A DNA stretch of 33,453 bases from a virus, in the IMG/VR virus record IMGVR_UViG_3300032265_002079, positions 1 to 33,453 of that record. One strand, written 5' to 3'. Below are positions 14,888 to 29,795 of this stretch, piece by piece (the stretch's first letter is position 1; each line of letters starts with the position of its first letter). Below the pieces are notes generated by a model. That model was not told where the DNA came from. It saw nothing but the letters and a program-made list of their open reading frames with translations, and did no database searches. The position numbers and the translations under genes are program-made.

Positions 14888-15596
14888 TTGTCTTGATGTT
14901 TATCAGTACGGTACTATAGATAGAATTAGTCCCGAAGCGCCTGTCCCTGTATTCAAATATAGCCATAAAGAAGAAATTGGAGGAATGGCACGTAATGTCA
15001 AATCCAATTTAGAAAATCTAGGATGTGAAGTTAGCTATCTATGCGGCGATACCAGTGTCAAGACTAGACTAATTGATCTGCGTAGCAAACAACACATTGT
15101 GAGAATCGACAATGATCAAATGTCATCGCCTATCAGTTTTAATACAGAGATTCCGGCAATATATGATGCTGTGGTAATCAGTGATTATAATAAAGGAACT
15201 GTGAGCTACGATATGGTAAAAAATATAATACAGACCTTTAAAGGCCCTGTGTTTATTGATACCAAAAAGACCGATCTGACACAATTCGAAGGTGCGTGGG
15301 TCAAAGTAAACGAGCTAGAGTATAGCAAACTTGTCACCACTTGCTCTGGATTAATTGTTACTTTGGGTAGCCGTGGCACATTGTTTAACAATGAAATATA
15401 TCCAGCAACAAAGGTAGAGGTTAGCGATGTATGCGGAGCAGGTGATACGTTTTTATCAGCATTGACATTGCAATTTCTCTTGACAAAAGACATGCAAAAA
15501 GCTATACTATTTGCTAACATAGCCGCTGGCATAACTGTACAGCATTTGGGAAACTACGCACCAAGTTACGACGAGATTAGACGTGCCGGATATTGA
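14826..15596 (+). CDS. Heptose-7-phosphate kinase-like (N-terminal HldE / RfaE1, PfkB family)
   Basis: 256 residues if the ATG at 14826 is used, overlapping the adenylyltransferase gene by 62 bases; a TTG at 14862 (giving LKILLIGDD) would trim 12 poorly conserved residues. GDDCLDVYQYG, then RISPEAPVPV and GGMARNVKSNLENLG, is the RfaE1 signature. The C-terminal CGAGDTF is the PfkB anion hole with the catalytic Asp. E. coli HldE kinase is about 318 residues, so this is compact. With the two preceding genes it forms an ADP-heptose pathway. GmhA- and GmhB-type genes are absent from the window. Confidence 0.85.
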   Translation: MTESTNTQQQKSLKILLIGDDCLDVYQYGTIDRISPEAPVPVFKYSHKEEIGGMARNVKSNLENLGCEVSYLCGDTSVKTRLIDLRSKQHIVRIDNDQMSSPISFNTEIPAIYDAVVISDYNKGTVSYDMVKNIIQTFKGPVFIDTKKTDLTQFEGAWVKVNELEYSKLVTTCSGLIVTLGSRGTLFNNEIYPATKVEVSDVCGAGDTFLSALTLQFLLTKDMQKAILFANIAAGITVQHLGNYAPSYDEIRRAGY

Positions 15597-16164
15597 TATA
15601 GACTTTTTAGATAGAACCGAAGCTCTTAAGATAATTAAGCATGTACCTGCGGCTATCAAAGAAGAAAATGGTACTTTTAAAAAACACAATACCGGCGTAT
15701 ATTGTCACGCTATTCCGTACAATCCGGTTACAGGTTTAGCAAGTTTTGATTATAAAGAAGCTGAAGATCGTAAATATTTTAAGTTAGATTTTTTAAACGT
15801 AAATGTTTATAAAGGTGTTCGCAACGAGGAACACTTGACTAATCTTATGAATCAGGAGCCATTATGGGATTTACTTTTACAAGACGACTTCGTGAATCTG
15901 TTATTTCATTTGAACGGGCATGGGATGGTACTAAGGAAGACTTGCCCTACTTCCGTGGAACAATTAAGTGCGGTCCTCGCTATGATCCGTCCGGCCAAGA
16001 GGCACCTGATTGGACAGGATTGGACTACGATAATGAAGGAAGTGTGGACGAAACCGACAGGTAATGAATATTACTTTAAGAAGGCTCATGCAGTGGCCTA
16101 TGCGGTTGCTATCGTTGTTCAGATGAATCTCATCTGTGAAGGAGTCAGCTATGAATATAGTTAA
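15583..16164 (+). CDS. Miniature DnaE-like protein (DNA polymerase III alpha fragment)
   Basis: 193 residues from a GTG start overlapping the kinase end. The N-terminus PDIDIDFLDRTEA matches the PDIDIDF catalytic-strand motif of bacterial DnaE. KYFKLDFLNVNVY resembles the K-x-D-x-L-G region, and the C-terminus EYYFKKAHAVAYAVAIVVQM matches the FNKSHAVAYALISYQ helix of the DnaE fingers. The long polymerase segments between these motifs, the PHP domain and the beta-clamp site are missing, so polymerase activity is unlikely. It may be a remnant or a repurposed template/dNTP-binding module. The reading frame is intact and embedded in an operon, so it is probably expressed. Confidence 0.65.
   Translation: MPDIDIDFLDRTEALKIIKHVPAAIKEENGTFKKHNTGVYCHAIPYNPVTGLASFDYKEAEDRKYFKLDFLNVNVYKGVRNEEHLTNLMNQEPLWDLLLQDDFVNLLFHLNGHGMVLRKTCPTSVEQLSAVLAMIRPAKRHLIGQDWTTIMKEVWTKPTGNEYYFKKAHAVAYAVAIVVQMNLICEGVSYEYS
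15854..16064 (+). other. Candidate nested out-of-frame gene (66 residues) with its own ribosome site
   Basis: An AGGAG site (15854-15858) precedes an ATG at 15864 by five bases and opens a 66-residue frame inside the DnaE-like gene. The product begins MGFTFTRRLRESVISFERAW and is balanced and soluble-looking. Sense-strand nested ORFs of this length occur by chance, so this is a candidate only. Confidence 0.3.
16139..16144 (+). promoter_or_regulatory. Ribosome binding site deciding the start at 16151
   Basis: AAGGAG six bases before the ATG at 16151. This selects that ATG over a GTG at 16136, which lies upstream of the site. Confidence 0.75.
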
Positions 16165-16753
16165 ACATGAATTTTGGTCAACACCTGTGTGGGAAGTTGA
16201 AACTGGATTTGATAGTTATTTCAATACCGTGTTAGTCAATGACATAGCTGAGTTAGCAAGGACAGGACTTCAATACAACATCTGGAAAAGCAACAAGTAT
16301 TCTATAGAACGTCTCAAAGAAAAAACATTTGAATGCTTGGATGCAACTGTTCGAGATTGTTTTCCTGAGTTTAATCCTTACGATCCTGTACTGCTAGATG
16401 GTTGGGCAAATCGTACCATGCCTGGAGAAAGTCTAGGATTACATGCCCATCCACATGCAACATTGATTACCACCTATTATGCTAAAAGTCCAGAAAACAG
16501 CGGTGATTTGTTACTAGTAGACCCAAGGGGTGCAGTCAATTGGGATTGGCATTTTGATACAGTTCCAAAACTGCTACATGGCGTAAATTATAAAAGAATC
16601 AGGCCAACTGAAGGAAAAATGGTATTTTTTCCAGCTTACATAATGCACATGGTCGAAGCAAACAGATCTAATGAGGATCGTATCTGCGTTGCTAGCAATA
16701 TACAAAATGGTATGAGTACAGTTGATTTTACTCCGAGAGCCAATAATGGCTAG
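16151..16753 (+). CDS. Putative 2OG-Fe(II) oxygenase (double-stranded beta-helix)
   Basis: 200 residues. The N-terminus HEFWSTPVWE is typical of the phage-rich 2OG-FeII_Oxy family (Pfam PF13759). GWANR is followed by LHAHPHAT with H98 and H100, then TTYYAKSPENSGDLLLVDPRG, GKMVFFPAYIMHMVEA with H166, and R177 in DRICVASN as a likely 2-oxoglutarate-binding Arg. The family would hydroxylate an unknown substrate. Just upstream of a late promoter and the Cys-rich protein gene. Two downstream proteins (21025 and 21678) share the WANR and HxH signature, so three relatives surround the radical SAM locus. Confidence 0.82.
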   Translation: MNIVKHEFWSTPVWEVETGFDSYFNTVLVNDIAELARTGLQYNIWKSNKYSIERLKEKTFECLDATVRDCFPEFNPYDPVLLDGWANRTMPGESLGLHAHPHATLITTYYAKSPENSGDLLLVDPRGAVNWDWHFDTVPKLLHGVNYKRIRPTEGKMVFFPAYIMHMVEANRSNEDRICVASNIQNGMSTVDFTPRANNG

Positions 16754-16761
16754 TATAAATA
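16754..16761 (+). promoter_or_regulatory. T4-type late promoter, exact TATAAATA
   Basis: Perfect match to the T4 late consensus in the 30-base gap before the ATG at 16784, leaving a leader of about 15 bases. It marks the Cys-rich protein and the genes behind it as a late transcription unit. Confidence 0.75.
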
Positions 16762-16783: not shown

Positions 16784-17296
16784 ATGACACTACCATTAAC
16801 TCCTAATTCCTTATCAATTGCCGATATTAACGCAGAATGCGGTGTTGCAGTAAACACAACACACGGCCTTGATTGGGTATTCGAAATCACAAGACCGGCA
16901 GAGCGTCCATACGCTCAATCTTATACTCCTGTAAATGTAACCGATCAAGTAAGTGGCGGTACTATTGCTGTAGCAAATGCTAATCTTGGACACTACAGAT
17001 CCAACCCAGTGAGCAGGCCAGGACAAAACGTCGGAACAGGATGGGCATATTATGTTGATAATATTAGAACCAGTGCCTGTGATAATGGAAACTGCCTCAA
17101 TTGTCAAACTACTGCTTGTGGAAATATTGGCGGCCAAAACTGCACTACAACTCCAATTAATTGTGCTGTTGATGATACTCGTGCCTGGTTACAAGGAAAC
17201 TGTAATTGTGCTTGCTCTTTCAACTGCGATCAAGTAACATATACTGTTGCTTGTAACTGTGCATGTCCTTGGATCTGCGCTTGTGCTTGCTGGTAA
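16784..17296 (+). CDS. Cys-rich putative modified (RiPP-like or virion) protein with CNCAC repeats
   Basis: 170 residues, no family named. The N-terminus (LPLTPNSLSIADINAECG) resembles the SLSxINxExG start common in virion and tail-associated proteins of aquatic myoviruses. Residues 1-98 have one Cys; residues 99-170 have sixteen. Two copies of CNCACxxxC, 17 residues apart, lie at 140-148 and 157-165, and the protein ends CACACW, with Trp at 163 and 170. The layout, a leader-like or structural N-terminus plus a Cys/Asn/Ala/Trp tail, with a SPASM radical SAM gene 21 bases downstream and a halogenase in the same array, makes it the likely modification substrate. This is inference; a metal-binding or disulfide-rich tail protein is the alternative. 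Confidence 0.75.
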   Translation: MTLPLTPNSLSIADINAECGVAVNTTHGLDWVFEITRPAERPYAQSYTPVNVTDQVSGGTIAVANANLGHYRSNPVSRPGQNVGTGWAYYVDNIRTSACDNGNCLNCQTTACGNIGGQNCTTTPINCAVDDTRAWLQGNCNCACSFNCDQVTYTVACNCACPWICACACW

Positions 17297-17317: not shown

Positions 17318-18781
17318 ATGAAATTTGAAATCATTGCTGGATTAAAAGGCAACAAAGACGACCGCAAAACATTTTACTACGATAACGTATCGAACGTAAT
17401 TTCTGATGAAACAGGATTTGTATGGGAATATCAAAAACCCGGTGGCGCTTTTAACTCACCGGAATCCTTGCCTTTCTCAAAAGATAACCCTCTAAAAAAG
17501 GGAAAAGAAATAGATGTAATCAAAATCCAGCTTGGTCTAAGCTGTAACTATTCATGTGATTATTGCAGTCAGCGATTTGTTGAACGACCACCAGAGACAA
17601 GTAAAAAAGATATCGAAGCGTTCATGGCCCAATTAGACGTACTTGAATTTTCGGAAGAGCGCGGCCTACGGGTAGAATTTTGGGGAGGCGAGCCACTAGT
17701 GTATTGGAAAACTCTCAAACCCTTGGCAGAAGCATTCCAGGAAAGATTTGCACACTGGGAGAAAAAACTCAGCTTTGGAATGGTAACTAACGGAACATTG
17801 CTTACTAGAGAAATTTGTTCTTGGTTATATTACATGGGGTTTGGAGTAGGTATCAGCCACGACGGCCCTGGACAATTTGTGCGCGGCCCAGATCCTTTCG
17901 AAGATGAAAAACAAAAAGAAATCATATTAGAATTTTATAAAGTAATGAAGCCGCTAGGCCGAATCAGTTTTAATTCCATGATGAACAATAAAAATACCAG
18001 TCGCAAGGCAGTGTATGATTGGTTTGTAGAGCTAACTGGTGACCCTAGTGTCAGTATTGGAGAAGGTGGATTCATTGATGCTTATGATGATGCGGCCGCA
18101 AACAACTGTTTGCAAACTCACGAAGAACATTTTGCATATCGACGACAAGCGTTCAATGATATTCACAGTACAGGAAACAGTATTAATTTTTACTTGACAT
18201 TCCAAAAACTTGATAATTTTATCAACGGTGTTCTTAATCATAGAGAATCTAAATATGTTGGACAAAAATGTGGGATGGACAATAGCGGTACTATTGCACT
18301 GGATTTAAAAGGTAATGTTGTCACCTGTCAGAATGTCAGTATCATTGAAACCAGCAAGAATGGCGAAAGTCATCTTGGCGGAAATCTATCGGACTACGAC
18401 AATGTTGAATTAAAATCAGTAACACATTGGAGTTCAAGAACAACAGAAATCAAATGTAGCGAATGCCCTGTCTTACATCTTTGCCAAGGCAGTTGCATGT
18501 ACCTCGATGGAGAAAATTGGGATATTACCTGTGCCAATGCCTATTCCGATAACGTGGCACTGTTTGCTGTAGCATTTGAGAAAATGACCGGTGGCTACAT
18601 TCCTATCTTGATAAACTCGCCAACTTTGCCTAAAGATCGTCAAGACATCTGGGGTACCATATACGAGCACAATGATAAACCCAAGAAAAAGTTTATTCCT
18701 ATCAAGGTTGTGGCTGAAAAAATTGGTACAGTAAATGACATTGAAATTTATGGCGTGCCTACACTAGCAACAGAGGTATAA
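17318..18781 (+). CDS. Radical SAM enzyme with C-terminal SPASM domain, peptide/protein-maturase type
   Basis: 487 residues. The radical SAM iron-sulfur motif is C76-x3-C80-x2-C83 (CNYSCDYC), with the SAM-binding GGEP at 123-126. The C-terminus has the complete seven-Cys SPASM signature: C318-x13-G-x4-C337, a gap, C380-x2-C383-x5-C389-x3-C393, then C405. SPASM enzymes such as AlbA, PqqE and anaerobic sulfatase maturases carry two auxiliary [4Fe-4S] clusters and modify peptides or proteins, often at Cys. The N-terminal 60 residues may bind a substrate but show no clear PqqD-like domain. Directly downstream of the Cys-rich gene, followed one base later by an unknown gene. Confidence 0.9.
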   Translation: MKFEIIAGLKGNKDDRKTFYYDNVSNVISDETGFVWEYQKPGGAFNSPESLPFSKDNPLKKGKEIDVIKIQLGLSCNYSCDYCSQRFVERPPETSKKDIEAFMAQLDVLEFSEERGLRVEFWGGEPLVYWKTLKPLAEAFQERFAHWEKKLSFGMVTNGTLLTREICSWLYYMGFGVGISHDGPGQFVRGPDPFEDEKQKEIILEFYKVMKPLGRISFNSMMNNKNTSRKAVYDWFVELTGDPSVSIGEGGFIDAYDDAAANNCLQTHEEHFAYRRQAFNDIHSTGNSINFYLTFQKLDNFINGVLNHRESKYVGQKCGMDNSGTIALDLKGNVVTCQNVSIIETSKNGESHLGGNLSDYDNVELKSVTHWSSRTTEIKCSECPVLHLCQGSCMYLDGENWDITCANAYSDNVALFAVAFEKMTGGYIPILINSPTLPKDRQDIWGTIYEHNDKPKKKFIPIKVVAEKIGTVNDIEIYGVPTLATEV

Positions 18782-18782
18782 C

Positions 18783-19502
18783 ATGACAGAGTTTGTGATA
18801 ACAGAACAACTACAAAATCAAATAAATCACTATAGAGGATTTACTGGAATTGTTTTATCTGTTACTGTAGGGCCGCCGGCAGCTGATTTAATTTTTCCTA
18901 ATACGCTGACCAATCCGGTTATGTTTACTTTTAAGATACATAATGCAGAATCAGGACAGACTGGTGACATACAGGTTGTTGTTCCTGACACAATATATAA
19001 TCTTGGGGTGGTCGACTACGGCGGCGCAGATGTTGAATTTTTGAAACAAGCAATCGGCTATAATGATCCTGACAACGATATAGGTTGTCTTGGACTAGCT
19101 AATGGATGTGTAATATGTCCAGATACTTTATCCTTCTGGATTGATACTGAAACACATCAGTTTGTTCCTATTATGGGAATAGATCATATACCCGTTGATC
19201 AAACAACTGTGGATCCTATGTTGCAAACGTTGCTAGATAAAATTAAACAGATACCCGGTATTGTCAATGTTTTAATTTATAAATTCAATGATCCTGCACG
19301 TCTAGAGAAATTAGAGACAACTCTTGCTTATAAATGCTATTGCTATTTTGGAGACGGAAATGGCACTAATTTTGACGGATTAAACAATGTTGCAACTGTG
19401 ATACCGAGCGAGGTATATCTAAACGAAATATGCTTTGATACTGTCGTAGAAAATATTAAAACGCTTTTGGAAAAAGCACTACTAACTAACCAGGCCCGAT
19501 AA
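18783..19502 (+). CDS. Unknown protein between radical SAM and halogenase genes
   Basis: 239 residues with no recognised family. It begins one base after the radical SAM stop and overlaps the halogenase start by one base (TAATG), so all three should be co-translated. The middle is strand-rich (MFTFKIHNAESGQTGDIQVV). A Cys cluster sits at C102, C109 and C112 (CLGLANGCVIC), and there is a CYCYFGDGNG segment near the C-terminus. It could be a second substrate, a scaffold or a virion protein. Confidence 0.75.
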   Translation: MTEFVITEQLQNQINHYRGFTGIVLSVTVGPPAADLIFPNTLTNPVMFTFKIHNAESGQTGDIQVVVPDTIYNLGVVDYGGADVEFLKQAIGYNDPDNDIGCLGLANGCVICPDTLSFWIDTETHQFVPIMGIDHIPVDQTTVDPMLQTLLDKIKQIPGIVNVLIYKFNDPARLEKLETTLAYKCYCYFGDGNGTNFDGLNNVATVIPSEVYLNEICFDTVVENIKTLLEKALLTNQAR

Positions 19503-21028
19503 TGATTAAATTTGTAGTTGTAGGCGGCGGAACTGCTGGGTGGCTTACTGCCCTCTTTTTAAAAAAGAACATAGCATACAGTAAGGTAACTGTAATTGCC
19601 AGTGACGAGATAGGAATATTAGGTGCAGGCGAAGGTACCAATTGGGATTTTATAAAATTCTTACAAGAAATTGATATTCCGGTCGATCAGGTTATTAAAC
19701 ATGCTAAGGGTACGTTTAAGAATGGTATAAAGTTTTCCAATTGGAATGGCGATGGAACACATTATTACCACCCCTTCTATGATCACCTAGGCAAGGAAAC
19801 AGATCCAGAAAAAAATCGGTTTGATCCGATTCCGTTTTATCTTCACAAACTTGTCGATAATAAAAATTTTAATGATTTGCAATTTACAAGTATTATATCA
19901 GAAGATAATCGTGTAAAATATGTCAACGATACACAAGAAGAATTAGGGTTAAGTGCATTGCATTTTGATGCTAATCTGCTAGCACAGTATCTACAAAGCG
20001 TAGGCATTGAACGAGGAATTGATTTGATCGACGACGAAGTTGTAGAAATCATTACGAATAAAAAAGGTGATATCTCTGAGCTTCAATTAAAATCAGGCAG
20101 TGCATGCGAAACAACATTTGTATTTGATTGTACAGGATTCAAGAGGCTTATCATTGGTGATTTCTACAAATCTGAATGGATCGATTATCAAAACAGTCTG
20201 CCCGTAAATAGAGCCATACCGTTTTTTATTGAGCATGATAATCAAGAAATTCCGCCATACACTGAAGCTATTGCTATGAAGTATGGGTGGATGTGGAAAA
20301 TTCCTGTACAAGGTAGATTTGGGTGCGGATATGTATTTGACTCTAGAGTAGTATCAGACGATGCCATAAAACAAGAGATTAAAGAATATCTTGGATTTGA
20401 ACCAGACTTTCCTAGAGTATTTGATTTTAAACCTGGCGTGTATAAAGATGTATGGATCAACAACTGTATTGCAATTGGATTAAGTTCGGGATTCGTTGAA
20501 CCGCTTGAAGCAACATCAATACAAGTATCGACTTTTGCACTACGTTCTTTTGCATTTAGAATCAACGATATGATTAGAAATCGAAAAAATACATCTGCTG
20601 AATTTAACAAAGAAATGAAACAGGTAAATGATCATATTTTGAGTTTTTTGCATTTTCATTACCTATCAAAGCGGAACGATACCGAATTTTGGAAACTGTT
20701 TTCAGAAAATAATGTTACTCCTCCCTTTGTTAAAAAGTTCGGGGAAATATCCAAAAAGTCCCTCCCGCAAGATCATGATTATGATTATTTGACCATTGCC
20801 ACATGCCCGATAGGTATTCCTCCTAAGAATCCTTTTACTGTTTATAATTGGCATATGGTAGGAGCAGGCATTAATTATTTTAGCTCAAGTATAACAAGCC
20901 GTCAACTTGAAAAATACAAGAATTTTGACATGGAACAACAAGAAGCTCGGCTTATATCGATTCTCAATACGGCAGCGGCGACCACTTACAAACACAGCGA
21001 TTATATTGAATACTTAAAACAATTATGA
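19502..21028 (+). CDS. Flavin-dependent (tryptophan-type) halogenase, copy 1
   Basis: 508 residues, as in PrnA/RebH-type enzymes. The FAD loop GGGTAG is at residues 8-13, and a Lys at 73 in the FKNGIKFSNW segment corresponds to the catalytic Lys (K79 in PrnA). The family WxWxIP motif is at 263-268. EPLEATS carries E336, aligning with catalytic E346 of PrnA. FADH2, chloride or bromide and oxygen would form HOX to halogenate an indole or another aromatic group. A flavin reductase partner is not encoded here. The context with a Trp-ending Cys-rich protein suggests peptide-bound Trp as substrate; free Trp is equally possible from sequence. Confidence 0.9.
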   Translation: MIKFVVVGGGTAGWLTALFLKKNIAYSKVTVIASDEIGILGAGEGTNWDFIKFLQEIDIPVDQVIKHAKGTFKNGIKFSNWNGDGTHYYHPFYDHLGKETDPEKNRFDPIPFYLHKLVDNKNFNDLQFTSIISEDNRVKYVNDTQEELGLSALHFDANLLAQYLQSVGIERGIDLIDDEVVEIITNKKGDISELQLKSGSACETTFVFDCTGFKRLIIGDFYKSEWIDYQNSLPVNRAIPFFIEHDNQEIPPYTEAIAMKYGWMWKIPVQGRFGCGYVFDSRVVSDDAIKQEIKEYLGFEPDFPRVFDFKPGVYKDVWINNCIAIGLSSGFVEPLEATSIQVSTFALRSFAFRINDMIRNRKNTSAEFNKEMKQVNDHILSFLHFHYLSKRNDTEFWKLFSENNVTPPFVKKFGEISKKSLPQDHDYDYLTIATCPIGIPPKNPFTVYNWHMVGAGINYFSSSITSRQLEKYKNFDMEQQEARLISILNTAAATTYKHSDYIEYLKQL

Positions 21029-21681
21029 AAGTTGAACAGGCCTTTGGTCATACAATAGTAAGAGTAGAATGTCCTGATGTAGAACTATATAAAAATGAGG
21101 ATTTGACCAAGGCAGTTGATCATGTGTTAAATCTTCCATATTTTAAAAACAGACTGCGTGGCTTCAAAGAAGATTCTTTAACAGGTGCTGGCCTAACGTC
21201 GGTAGGTCACGAATACCTGGCACTCTCAAATCTTCCTGGTTCCGGAAATTTAAATAAATGGGTCAAGGAACAAATGCTAATGGCCAAGCAAATATTTGAG
21301 ATAACAAAACCGGGCAATGATATTAAATTTAAAAGATCCTGGGCCAATAGATTATTTAAAGGTGCTCAAGGCAAATGTCATCAGCACATAAAAGTTGATC
21401 AGTACATTGCAGAATTAACCGACTATAGTTATGAAAATTTTTGTCCGGACATTGTAGGAATAATGTATGTTGACGTTCCTCCCGACTCTGCCGATCTAGC
21501 AATTATTAATAACGGTAGAGAAGATACCCGAGCATCGGATTATGTCGAAGATGACAAATATTATATCTCGCCAGTTGAGGGCGAACTAGTACTACACCTG
21601 CCAGATGTATGGCATGCAATAACATCGCATAACAGTGATCTACCAAGAAATGTTTATGTATTTGATGCAGATTTTGTATGA
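21025..21681 (+). CDS. Dioxygenase-like double-stranded beta-helix protein, tandem copy A
   Basis: 218 residues. SWANR (105-109) is followed by CHQH with H119 and H121, then GIMYVDVPPDSADLAI, GELVLHLPDVWHAI with H197, and R208 near the C-terminus. The order WANR, HxH, beta-helix strands, distal His and Arg matches the 2OG-Fe(II) oxygenase at 16151, so an Fe/2OG hydroxylase is likely, though the ligand set HxH rather than HxD is unusual. Overlaps the halogenase stop by four bases and the next, paralogous gene by four bases. Confidence 0.68.
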   Translation: MKVEQAFGHTIVRVECPDVELYKNEDLTKAVDHVLNLPYFKNRLRGFKEDSLTGAGLTSVGHEYLALSNLPGSGNLNKWVKEQMLMAKQIFEITKPGNDIKFKRSWANRLFKGAQGKCHQHIKVDQYIAELTDYSYENFCPDIVGIMYVDVPPDSADLAIINNGREDTRASDYVEDDKYYISPVEGELVLHLPDVWHAITSHNSDLPRNVYVFDADFV

Positions 21682-22265
21682 TAATCGAAGATATCTTTGG
21701 ACATAAAATCGTCCGTATACAATGTGCAGACAGCAGTTTATATAATAATACAGAACTAACTGCCAGCGTCGATCAAGTATTCAAGTTACCAGAAGTTAAA
21801 AAATTTAACAGCAATCGAGGATCGCAAAACGGCCACGGACTAACTTTTGTCGACCATCCCTACTTGTCGTTAGAACATTTACCCGGTGCTGGTTTATTAA
21901 TGAAATGGATAGCTGACCAGATGATAGCTAACACAGAACATACAGGTGTTACATTTGTTAGATCTTGGGCCAACAGAATATTCAAAGATTGTACGGGTAT
22001 GCTACATAATCATCTTGGATATGGGCATGTCGATATTACAGGAATATTGTATGTTGATGTACCAGCTCACGGCGCAGAATTAATTTTTGTACGGGACGGT
22101 GAAGCAGGAAAGTCTCACTTTGAGTATGCACCCGAGGATAGATACTGTATACAACCTATGCAAGGGGAATTGATATTACACGATTCTGCGGTATTTCATA
22201 CAGTGGGTCAACATGTGGTTGATATGACTAGAACTGTGTTTGTATTTGATGCAGTGTATAGTTAA
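21678..22265 (+). CDS. Dioxygenase-like double-stranded beta-helix protein, tandem copy B
   Basis: 195 residues, clearly a duplicate of the preceding protein. Both begin with (V/I)E-x-x-FGH-x-IVR and share SLxHLPG-type and SWANR-(L/I)-FK segments, then HxH (H110, H112), G-I-x-YVDVP, GELILH, distal H174, R185 and the end VFVFDA. Copy A has an extra 20 or so residues between the LPG and WANR segments and near HxH. Ends tail to tail with the minus-strand gene behind it, the two sharing a TTAA stop overlap. Confidence 0.68.
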   Translation: MIIEDIFGHKIVRIQCADSSLYNNTELTASVDQVFKLPEVKKFNSNRGSQNGHGLTFVDHPYLSLEHLPGAGLLMKWIADQMIANTEHTGVTFVRSWANRIFKDCTGMLHNHLGYGHVDITGILYVDVPAHGAELIFVRDGEAGKSHFEYAPEDRYCIQPMQGELILHDSAVFHTVGQHVVDMTRTVFVFDAVYS

Positions 22266-28190: not shown

Positions 28191-28259
28191 AAAATTCCCG
28201 GGAGTTATATCTGTACTTATCTACAGCATCAAAAAATGCTATGTTAATTGAAAAATGAA

Positions 28260-28267
28260 ATTAAATA
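28260..28267 (+). promoter_or_regulatory. Possible late promoter (ATTAAATA) 4 bases before the ATG at 28272
   Basis: TAAATA core directly followed by CCGT and the start codon. No Shine-Dalgarno is visible for this ATG, which fits the leaderless pattern seen at 22657. Confidence 0.4.
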
Positions 28268-28271
28268 CCGT

Positions 28272-29795
28272 ATGAAAATATGTATCTTGGGCGGAGGCAC
28301 CGCCGGATGGATGGCCGCACTATGTATCCAGAAGCGTCAACCCGAACACGAAATTATTGTAGTAGAAAGCAGTCGTATAGGTATCATTGGCACCGGTGAA
28401 GGAACCACAGGGCTATTTGCTGACATAATGAGCAAGGTGCTAGGACTGTCCGAAGAAGATTTTTTAATCAATACCGGTGCTACACAAAAACTGGGCAACA
28501 GGTTCCACAATTGGCGCGGTGACGGCACCAGCTTTATAGCACCCTTGGACAATACACATACATCACTTTCACCAGTAGATACTACACTGATATATCACTG
28601 TAGATATCACGAAAAAGATCAAGTACACCTAACTACCCAATGCGGACAACTGGCCGATCGCGGACTGACCAGTTTTAGACACGATGGTGGAGAAGTGTTA
28701 CCCATACACGGATATCATTTTGATGGACATCTAGTAGGAGCATATTTCAGACGTATCAGTGTTGCCCAAGGAGCTGAGGTAATTGACAGTGAATACACTC
28801 ATTGTAAACGCAGAGAAGACGGCAGTGTTGCGTTGATACATCTGGCCAACGACCAGACCGTTGAAGCAGACGTGTTTGTTGATGCCACTGGTTTTGCTAG
28901 ATGCCTAGGACAAGAAGTAGGAGCAGGTTGGCACAGTTTCAGCGACAGTCTCAGTTGCGATCGTGCCATGCCGTTCCATTTGCCGCATTTGCCTAAAATA
29001 GACGCCTTGACCGAAGCCCATGCATTGTCATCCGGCTGGATGTGGCGCATACCCGTGCAGGCACGTAGAGGATGCGGCTATGTGTTTGACAGCAATTTTA
29101 TCACTGCTGATCAAGCACAGGCAGAAATAGAAACAGTACTAGGGCACCCGATTGATCCTATCAAAGTCATCAAATTTGAACCAGGACGAGTAGAACATAC
29201 CTTTTGCCACAACGTGGTCACTATAGGGCTTGCCGGTTGCTTTTTAGAACCCTTGCAGGCCACCAACCTACACGGCACCTTGATACAGATACAAAAGATG
29301 GTGGAGTATTGGCTACGCCCTGAGGGCTTGGCCGGCCCGCTGGAAACCAAAAATCTAAACAGGGAAATCACTCGCGTGTTTGATGATTTTGCCAATCTTA
29401 TACAGATACACTATCACAGCGGCAGATCAGATACCGAATTCTGGCGCCATCAGCAGGCAGTGCCACTGTTGCCCACAGCGGCCACCATGCAGGAAATCTG
29501 CCAGCGCCGATGGCCCGTGCATGATGATTGGGCACTAAAGGGTGCGGCCGGCTACGGTGTCAGCATATATCCCATGATCGAGTACGGCTGGTTGGATCAG
29601 GCCATCAAACAGGAAACGCTGGCCAATCTCGACGGTGTTCGCCAGCAGTACCAGCGCGAGGTCTCGCATGCAGAAGAAATCAGTCGCGGAGCCATGTCGA
29701 ACACAATTTTGGTAAATCGACTAAGACAGCAGGGCGCCATAAGGCCCAGAACCATACCTGCTGATCTACGCAAACTGTTGGAGTTGGGACAATGA
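28272..29795 (+). CDS. Flavin-dependent (tryptophan-type) halogenase, copy 2
   Basis: 507 residues from the ATG at 28272, which gives the family-standard start MKICILGGGTAG; an extension to 28248 adds eight atypical residues. K73 lies in TQKLGNRFHNW, and W256-x-W258-x-IP is in SGWMWRIPVQAR. The position of catalytic E346 of PrnA reads Gln329 (EPLQATN), so chemistry may be changed or reduced. Related to copy 1 throughout but clearly diverged and noticeably more GC-rich (31 of 60 bases in the line at 29401, against 19 of 60 at 20041). Coupled by ATGA to the SGNH-like gene. Confidence 0.88.
   Translation: MKICILGGGTAGWMAALCIQKRQPEHEIIVVESSRIGIIGTGEGTTGLFADIMSKVLGLSEEDFLINTGATQKLGNRFHNWRGDGTSFIAPLDNTHTSLSPVDTTLIYHCRYHEKDQVHLTTQCGQLADRGLTSFRHDGGEVLPIHGYHFDGHLVGAYFRRISVAQGAEVIDSEYTHCKRREDGSVALIHLANDQTVEADVFVDATGFARCLGQEVGAGWHSFSDSLSCDRAMPFHLPHLPKIDALTEAHALSSGWMWRIPVQARRGCGYVFDSNFITADQAQAEIETVLGHPIDPIKVIKFEPGRVEHTFCHNVVTIGLAGCFLEPLQATNLHGTLIQIQKMVEYWLRPEGLAGPLETKNLNREITRVFDDFANLIQIHYHSGRSDTEFWRHQQAVPLLPTAATMQEICQRRWPVHDDWALKGAAGYGVSIYPMIEYGWLDQAIKQETLANLDGVRQQYQREVSHAEEISRGAMSNTILVNRLRQQGAIRPRTIPADLRKLLELGQ

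Follow-up and report, generated by a model that had tools for sequence, protein, structure and literature searches.

The locus examined here raises the question of what a phage-encoded radical SAM/SPASM enzyme modifies, and whether the Cys-rich protein encoded beside it is a released peptide or a part of the virion. The locus lies in a virus record of 33,453 bases, the whole of which is called the window here and which, judged by eye, is a fragment of a T4-like phage with RecA/UvsX-like, UvsW-like, and primase/helicase-like ORFs. The original prediction proposed that the protein is a ribosomal peptide whose long structural N terminus acts as leader for a modified, Cys-rich tail.

Anatomy and conservation of the array protein

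The layout on which that prediction was built is present in the translation. All but one of the 17 cysteines fall at residues 99 to 169, that is, within the final 72 positions of the protein. A CNCACxxxC motif occurs twice, beginning at residues 140 (CNCACSFNC) and 157 (CNCACPWIC), exactly 17 residues apart, and tryptophans occupy position 163 and the very C terminus (position 170), with further tryptophans at 31, 87, and 135. This 72-residue tail was shuffled 20,000 times without once giving two copies of CNCACxxxC. The number of CxC pairs in the tail (6) is ordinary for its composition and is reached by 6% of shuffles. At the sequence level, cysteine conservation is stronger proof of the array than the shuffle test: across 15 homologs with identities down to 34%, most array cysteine columns are invariant or nearly so. 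The N-terminal part (MTLPxSGxIxISDIxxExG), which had been thought to look like the start of a virion protein, does resemble the starts of further structural-type proteins encoded by these phages, e.g. L380:6557-7645. Neither this part nor the whole protein (P0001) gave a match in Pfam, PHROG, or NCBIfam, and an AlphaFold model of the array protein (pLDDT 48) was uninterpretable. Close arrays seem to be absent from known phages other than two Achromobacter isolates, because tblastn with P0001 and a second array type as queries found no match in 50,697 phage records, a search in which the BLAST low-complexity filter may mask some sequences.

Table 1. Features of the array locus in the window, with proposed roles.
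Feature	Position	Strand	Remarks
2OG-Fe(II) oxygenase, candidate co-tailoring enzyme	16136..16753	+	PF13759, E 5.7e-20
T4-late-promoter-like box TATAAATA	16754..16761	+	22 bp before the ATG of the array gene
Array protein (P0001) ORF	16784-17296	+	170 aa, 17 Cys
N-terminal part of array protein, residues 1-98	16784..17077	+	structural-type start MTLPLTPNSLSIADIN
C-terminal cysteine array, residues 99-170, and stop codon	17078..17296	+	16 Cys; putative radical SAM/SPASM substrate
Codon of C-terminal Trp170	17291..17293	+	proposed halogenation site; Trp/halogenase linkage
Radical SAM/SPASM enzyme, proposed array maturase	17318..18781	+	PF04055, phrog_1802
Protein between radical SAM/SPASM enzyme and halogenase	18783..19502	+	L378 and L379 have the only clear relatives, same place; no Pfam match
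Flavin-dependent Trp halogenase, with Trp170 as proposed target	19502..21028	+	PF04820, E 2.2e-99
2OG-Fe(II) oxygenase-like, possible accessory	21025..21681	+	PF13759 below cutoff, phrog_81
2OG-Fe(II) oxygenase-like, possible accessory	21678..22265	+	PF13759, phrog_81

The neighboring enzyme belongs to the radical SAM/SPASM class

The product of the gene downstream of the array gene matches PHROG 1802 (radical SAM domain-containing protein) with an E value of 1.1e-63. In 26 diverse sequences, the CX3CX2C motif of the radical SAM core (C76, C80, C83) is invariant, as are all seven cysteines of a complete SPASM signature (C318-x13-G332-x4-C337, C380x2C383x5C389x3C393, and C405). A structural model of the enzyme (pLDDT 86) has CteB as its nearest solved fold, accompanied by ChlB, anSMEcpe, TigE, SuiB, and SkfB; a profile search of solved structures returned TigE, CteB, and anSME, in agreement with the fold comparison. 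The best NCBIfam models were PapB, with 86.6 bits against a cutoff of 340, and then the quinohemoprotein amine dehydrogenase maturase, with 82 bits against 453, and the enzyme lies far under the cutoff of every named NCBIfam maturase family.

Arrays and the radical SAM enzyme occur together

Most of the enzyme's 54 viral relatives lie in array-bearing loci, where arrays such as CNCACACACFVCACACW, NCRTNCNCNCACACAC, and NCNCNCNC are joined to very different N-terminal parts. To avoid circularity, we scanned IMG/VR at the codon level, blind to the enzyme, for NCNCNCNC and NCNCACAC (Asn-Cys repeated four times, and Asn-Cys-Asn-Cys-Ala-Cys-Ala-Cys). Loci with a C-terminal array contained the radical SAM gene in 103 of 124 cases, and in 64 of 66 once the flanks had to reach 3.5 kb or more downstream and 1.5 kb or more upstream. 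Where the codon pattern fell in other ORFs, the enzyme was present in 3 of 37 loci, two of those three being real arrays (all scan counts are per locus and include redundant copies). A search starting from an N-terminal domain, A3 (MQNYTEIPSSTTLSDS), found the enzyme in 47/47 array loci with enough flank, and in both sets the candidate substrate is encoded beside the enzyme. Three tail fibers that share a similar N-terminal domain, from phages without a nearby radical SAM gene, have no CxC at all; they served as the array-less control in place of domain A3 itself, which was dropped as too tightly tied to arrays.

A bacterial-genome scan with the enzyme alignment extended the pairing to alpha- and betaproteobacterial prophage-like loci with arrays beside the enzyme, in Limnohabitans, Polynucleobacter, Paraburkholderia, Burkholderia paludis, Thalassobacter, Thalassovita, Nereida, Magnetospirillum, Bradyrhizobium, and others. 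The whole collection of 283 loci yields 309 array proteins, whose N-terminal parts fall into at least 14 unrelated families. Homologs that lie next to the enzyme and lack the Cys array would have spoken against a substrate role. This check did not overturn the proposal: of the 175 radical SAM loci whose flanks could be used, 143 have an array by a simple rule, and the remaining 32 include truncated or degenerate arrays; conversely, locus L164 has an array and no radical SAM gene within 3.6 kb. The proposal of the array as a radical SAM substrate is thus supported by co-occurrence over hundreds of phages and prophages with many unrelated N-terminal parts. Because a regular module on unrelated carriers consistently accompanies one enzyme family, we infer, with high confidence for a conclusion drawn from sequence, that the array is the substrate of the neighboring radical SAM/SPASM enzyme.

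Several loci depart from the arrangement of one array gene and one enzyme gene. Two or three small tandem proteins, each with a terminal NC/AC array, precede one radical SAM gene in L018:3510-4434, L121, L153, L180:5155-6516, and L193:4637-5998, so that one enzyme probably serves several substrates there. Extra radical SAM-like genes, which may be partners or second maturases, occur near the array-linked one in L172:7669-10012, L085:7139-9354, and L104:240-3777. Divergent CQxC-rich arrays (CQSCQGCQTCQGC...) are encoded at L140:2873-3978, near a distant radical SAM gene and a small Hint-like gene.

Array composition and candidate chemistry

Across 142 non-redundant tails, 544 positions lie between cysteines, of which 311 are Asn, 132 Ala, and 55 Asp (92% together). 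The arrays contain runs of 4 to 10 cysteines, one at every second residue. With CteB and PapB as precedents for thioether formation, we lean toward the view that the array would carry thioether bridges. The enzyme could also be correctly paired with the array and catalyze another reaction, such as conversion of Cys to formylglycine (as by anaerobic sulfatase maturases), epimerization, or C–C cross-linking at Asn, Ala, or Trp. The presence of anSMEcpe among the nearest folds would fit this, as would the very different reactions covered by the closest NCBIfam models, all of them under cutoff. However, thioether-forming enzymes (CteB, PapB, and the quinohemoprotein amine dehydrogenase maturase) account for the top fold match and for several of the leading sequence models, and many cysteines at a strict i, i+2 spacing fit bridges better than single-site oxidation. 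We consider a reaction other than thioether formation unlikely.

The domains that follow some arrays bear on the end of the modified segment. In L002 and L401, a Peptidase_S74 chaperone lies behind the array, and position 1 of its domain model is the Ser directly after ...CFW. S74 domains cut before that Ser, so self-removal would leave a C-terminal Trp in these two proteins also. A Hint domain begins directly after the array in four cases (Achromobacter phages JWF and 2-1, Burkholderia paludis, and L258). Because S74 and Hint domains begin right behind it, the array seems, from its sequence context, to be meant as a free C terminus.

Hint (intein-like) domains directly behind the Cys array were seen in phage and prophage tail-fiber proteins at L055:3808-5250, L377:3679-5130, L222:4733-6262, L258:5038-6057, and L045:2-850, the last called from its sequence and a weak Pfam match only; the placement is as if for exposing or attaching the C terminus of the array. 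One clade (L010-L016 and L031; e.g. L012:7437-8333) has a domain of ~170 aa (CSKIICTKLYEIG...) after the array, with a hydrophobic end and no Pfam match, and its array gene is downstream of the radical SAM gene.

A tryptophan halogenase tracks the terminal tryptophan

The flavin-dependent halogenase of the locus retains its characteristic motifs, which are invariant in five relatives (G8, G10, and G13 of the FAD motif; W263, W265, I267, and P268 of WxWxIP), and its solved relatives include PrnA, Thal, RebH, and VirX1 of a cyanophage. The terminal Trp had been regarded as part of the pairing with the radical SAM enzyme. This did not hold, as most partners of the enzyme lack it; the Trp instead tracks the Trp halogenase gene. 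Radical SAM loci with a close Trp halogenase have arrays that terminate in Trp, and when IMG/VR was searched with the halogenase alone, a Trp-ended array was found in every locus in which both the radical SAM gene and an array were found. The residues preceding the terminal Trp vary (CACACW, CACTW, CDCW, FNCW, CACLW). Among distinct, non-redundant arrays, 22 of 22 with a halogenase end in Trp versus 0 of 65 without (downstream flank at least 4.5 kb), a comparison that overstates the independent evidence because the trait needs few changes on the radical SAM tree (at least two, of which strong branches force only one). Two truncated loci, representing one distinct tail (CCGW), have a terminal Trp and no halogenase in view. 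Together, these data make the last Trp of the array protein, as far as sequence linkage can indicate, the likely target of the halogenase.

A broader rule, by which a Trp-ended neighbor would accompany every phage halogenase, was rejected: at halogenase loci without a radical SAM gene, 564 nearby ORFs included 2 with a terminal Trp. The window encodes a second, divergent Trp halogenase at 28248-29795, distant from any array.

Other genes near the array

A 2OG-Fe(II) oxygenase gene lies within 3.5 kb of the radical SAM gene in 102 of 143 array loci versus 5 of 57 loci without a radical SAM gene, the calls being from a Pfam check of representatives, several of them under the curated cutoff. A second companion protein, which has no Pfam match and ends in a C-terminal KxGF-type sequence, is present in 109/143 and 9/57 of the same loci. 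Such conserved proteins, of ~270-320 aa and with a KxGF- or KAGY-type ending, are encoded directly behind the array gene at L130:4807-5688, L253:5512-6336, L061:1221-2183, and their relatives. In the window, positions 15583-16164 encode a 193-aa protein like a fragment of DNA polymerase III alpha (phrog_11778), which is conserved at this location in L378 and L379.

Probable late expression and location of the array protein

A box of the form NATAAATA, similar to the late promoter of T4, occurs within 60 bp upstream of the ATG in 21 of 21 array genes of the halogenase type. In the same loci it precedes 5 of the 298 other ORFs and none of the 22 radical SAM genes; such boxes also arise by chance across the window as a whole. 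Array proteins of the relatives match tail-fiber PHROGs, S74 domains, and collagen-type fibers, the better-known carriers being tail fibers, and in the Achromobacter phages the array gene is located between baseplate hub and lysis genes. From its neighbors, domain matches, and promoter, the array protein is likely to be located in the virion. That the modified tip contacts the host is a tentative suggestion, which we place slightly short of even odds.

A leader-type ribosomal peptide, as originally proposed, fits these findings loosely. No sign of N-terminal cleavage was found, and the processing domains (S74 and Hint) lie after the array, where their self-removal would expose it as a C terminus. 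The array protein appears closer to a modified virion protein than to a peptide that is released. A bacteriocin-like or host-modulating peptide, with the structural N terminus as a leader that is cut off after modification, has a precedent in the SrpE/SrpI proteusins, which combine long structured leaders with bromination of a C-terminal Trp that follows modified Cys (PMC10286304). However, no recurrent protease or exporter was found near the cassette in the loci inspected, the array proteins include long tail fibers of collagen type and S74 type, the array genes adjoin baseplate/tail and lysis genes, and the known processing domains are on the wrong side of the array for leader removal. Release is improbable on this evidence.

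The least probable alternative is an array that forms a metal, Fe-S, or disulfide tip while the radical SAM enzyme acts elsewhere or merely loads a cluster: metal-bearing spike tips occur in other phages and the density of cysteines is high, but 4 to 10 cysteines at every second residue are unlike known Zn or Fe-S spacings, no gene other than that of the radical SAM enzyme is so tightly tied to the array (64/66 loci), and disulfides are unlikely because phages assemble in the reducing cytoplasm.

Discussion

Starting from what the sequences show, namely the anatomy of the array protein, its strict linkage to the radical SAM enzyme, the equally strict pairing of a terminal Trp with the halogenase, the box resembling a late promoter, and the fold class of the enzyme, we propose a model in which a late structural protein acquires a radical SAM-modified Cys tip and a halogenated Trp and is retained on the virion. 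We assign this reading as a whole a probability of roughly 60%. The 170-aa protein, of tail or fiber type, would be expressed late, and its N-terminal part would serve as a docking platform for the radical SAM/SPASM enzyme. The enzyme would join Cys thiols to nearby carbons of Asn, Ala, or Asp as thioether bridges and thereby convert a loose array into a stiff, cross-linked C-terminal tip, which the neighboring 2OG-Fe(II) oxygenase may also hydroxylate. The flavin-dependent halogenase would then halogenate the C-terminal Trp. Precedents for these chemical steps are CteB and PapB for thioethers and SrpI for a C-terminal Trp behind modified Cys, with an obligatory leader. The finished protein would remain uncut and carry its modified tip on the particle, most likely where the host envelope is met; in relatives with an S74 chaperone or Hint domain behind the array, that domain would first remove itself, so that the tip becomes the C terminus.

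In broader terms, it appears somewhat probable that many phages build cross-linked and sometimes halogenated tips of virion proteins with enzymes of RiPP type, and that one group of viral halogenases has the virion as its natural substrate. If so, widespread tailed phages and prophages finish their host-contact proteins by the chemistry of peptide natural products, a general and previously unseen class of virion modification. The phage radical SAM family PHROG 1802 would gain a substrate, one group of viral halogenases its natural substrate, and some of the 2OG oxygenases common in phages a possible role. The arrays also offer genetically portable modified tails, in which any N-terminal part can be combined with an array, so that substrate and chemistry are directly testable in Escherichia coli.

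Individually, the enzymes are of known kinds. We found no report of the arrays, their substrates, or the linked system in a literature consisting mostly of open-access papers, and no described counterpart there for the use of such enzymes on virus structural-type proteins with at least 14 unrelated carriers. We regard the system as new because no known kind of system applies these enzymes to virus structural-type proteins. Among the nearest arrangements are the PapB/PapA ranthipeptide system and the sactipeptide-type maturase CteB, in which, as in the window, a SPASM radical SAM enzyme adjoins a protein with a regular Cys array. The window lacks the CX3D/E motif of PapA and has CxC with Asn, Ala, or Asp instead, its enzyme scores well below the PapB cutoff, and its putative substrate, unlike theirs, is a structural-type protein of a phage. 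In the QhpD/QhpC system, a radical SAM enzyme likewise introduces several thioethers, and its target is a folded structural subunit and not a peptide that is released. That subunit belongs to a cellular enzyme and contains Cys-Asp/Glu links, and the array of the window differs in sequence and setting.

Among phages, the radical SAM genes of pelagimyophages have been described as gained cassettes in the tail-fiber/host-recognition region, and the accessible part of that report does not describe a substrate, an array, or a mechanism (PMC7029224). PHROG 1802, the family matched by the enzyme of the window, has no assigned function or substrate. Viral Trp halogenases are abundant in cyanophages (PMC10452541), and VirX1 and other phage Trp halogenases belong to the same Pfam family as the halogenase of the window. 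VirX1 is known from its activity on test compounds, and the accessible text of its description names no natural substrate (PMC8407142), whereas the proposed target in the window is the C-terminal Trp of a virion-type protein.

The closest parallel to this target is the brominase SrpI, which acts on the C-terminal Trp of the proteusin SrpE (core -LCCCW) and requires both the leader and the terminal Trp (PMC10286304). In the proposed reading, both systems would combine a flavin-dependent halogenase with a ribosomal precursor, a long structured leader, and modified cysteines just before the Trp. In SrpE, a marine sponge RiPP, the cysteines are converted to thiazolines by a YcaO enzyme, whereas the window pairs a radical SAM/SPASM enzyme with a virus structural-type precursor that shows no apparent leader removal.
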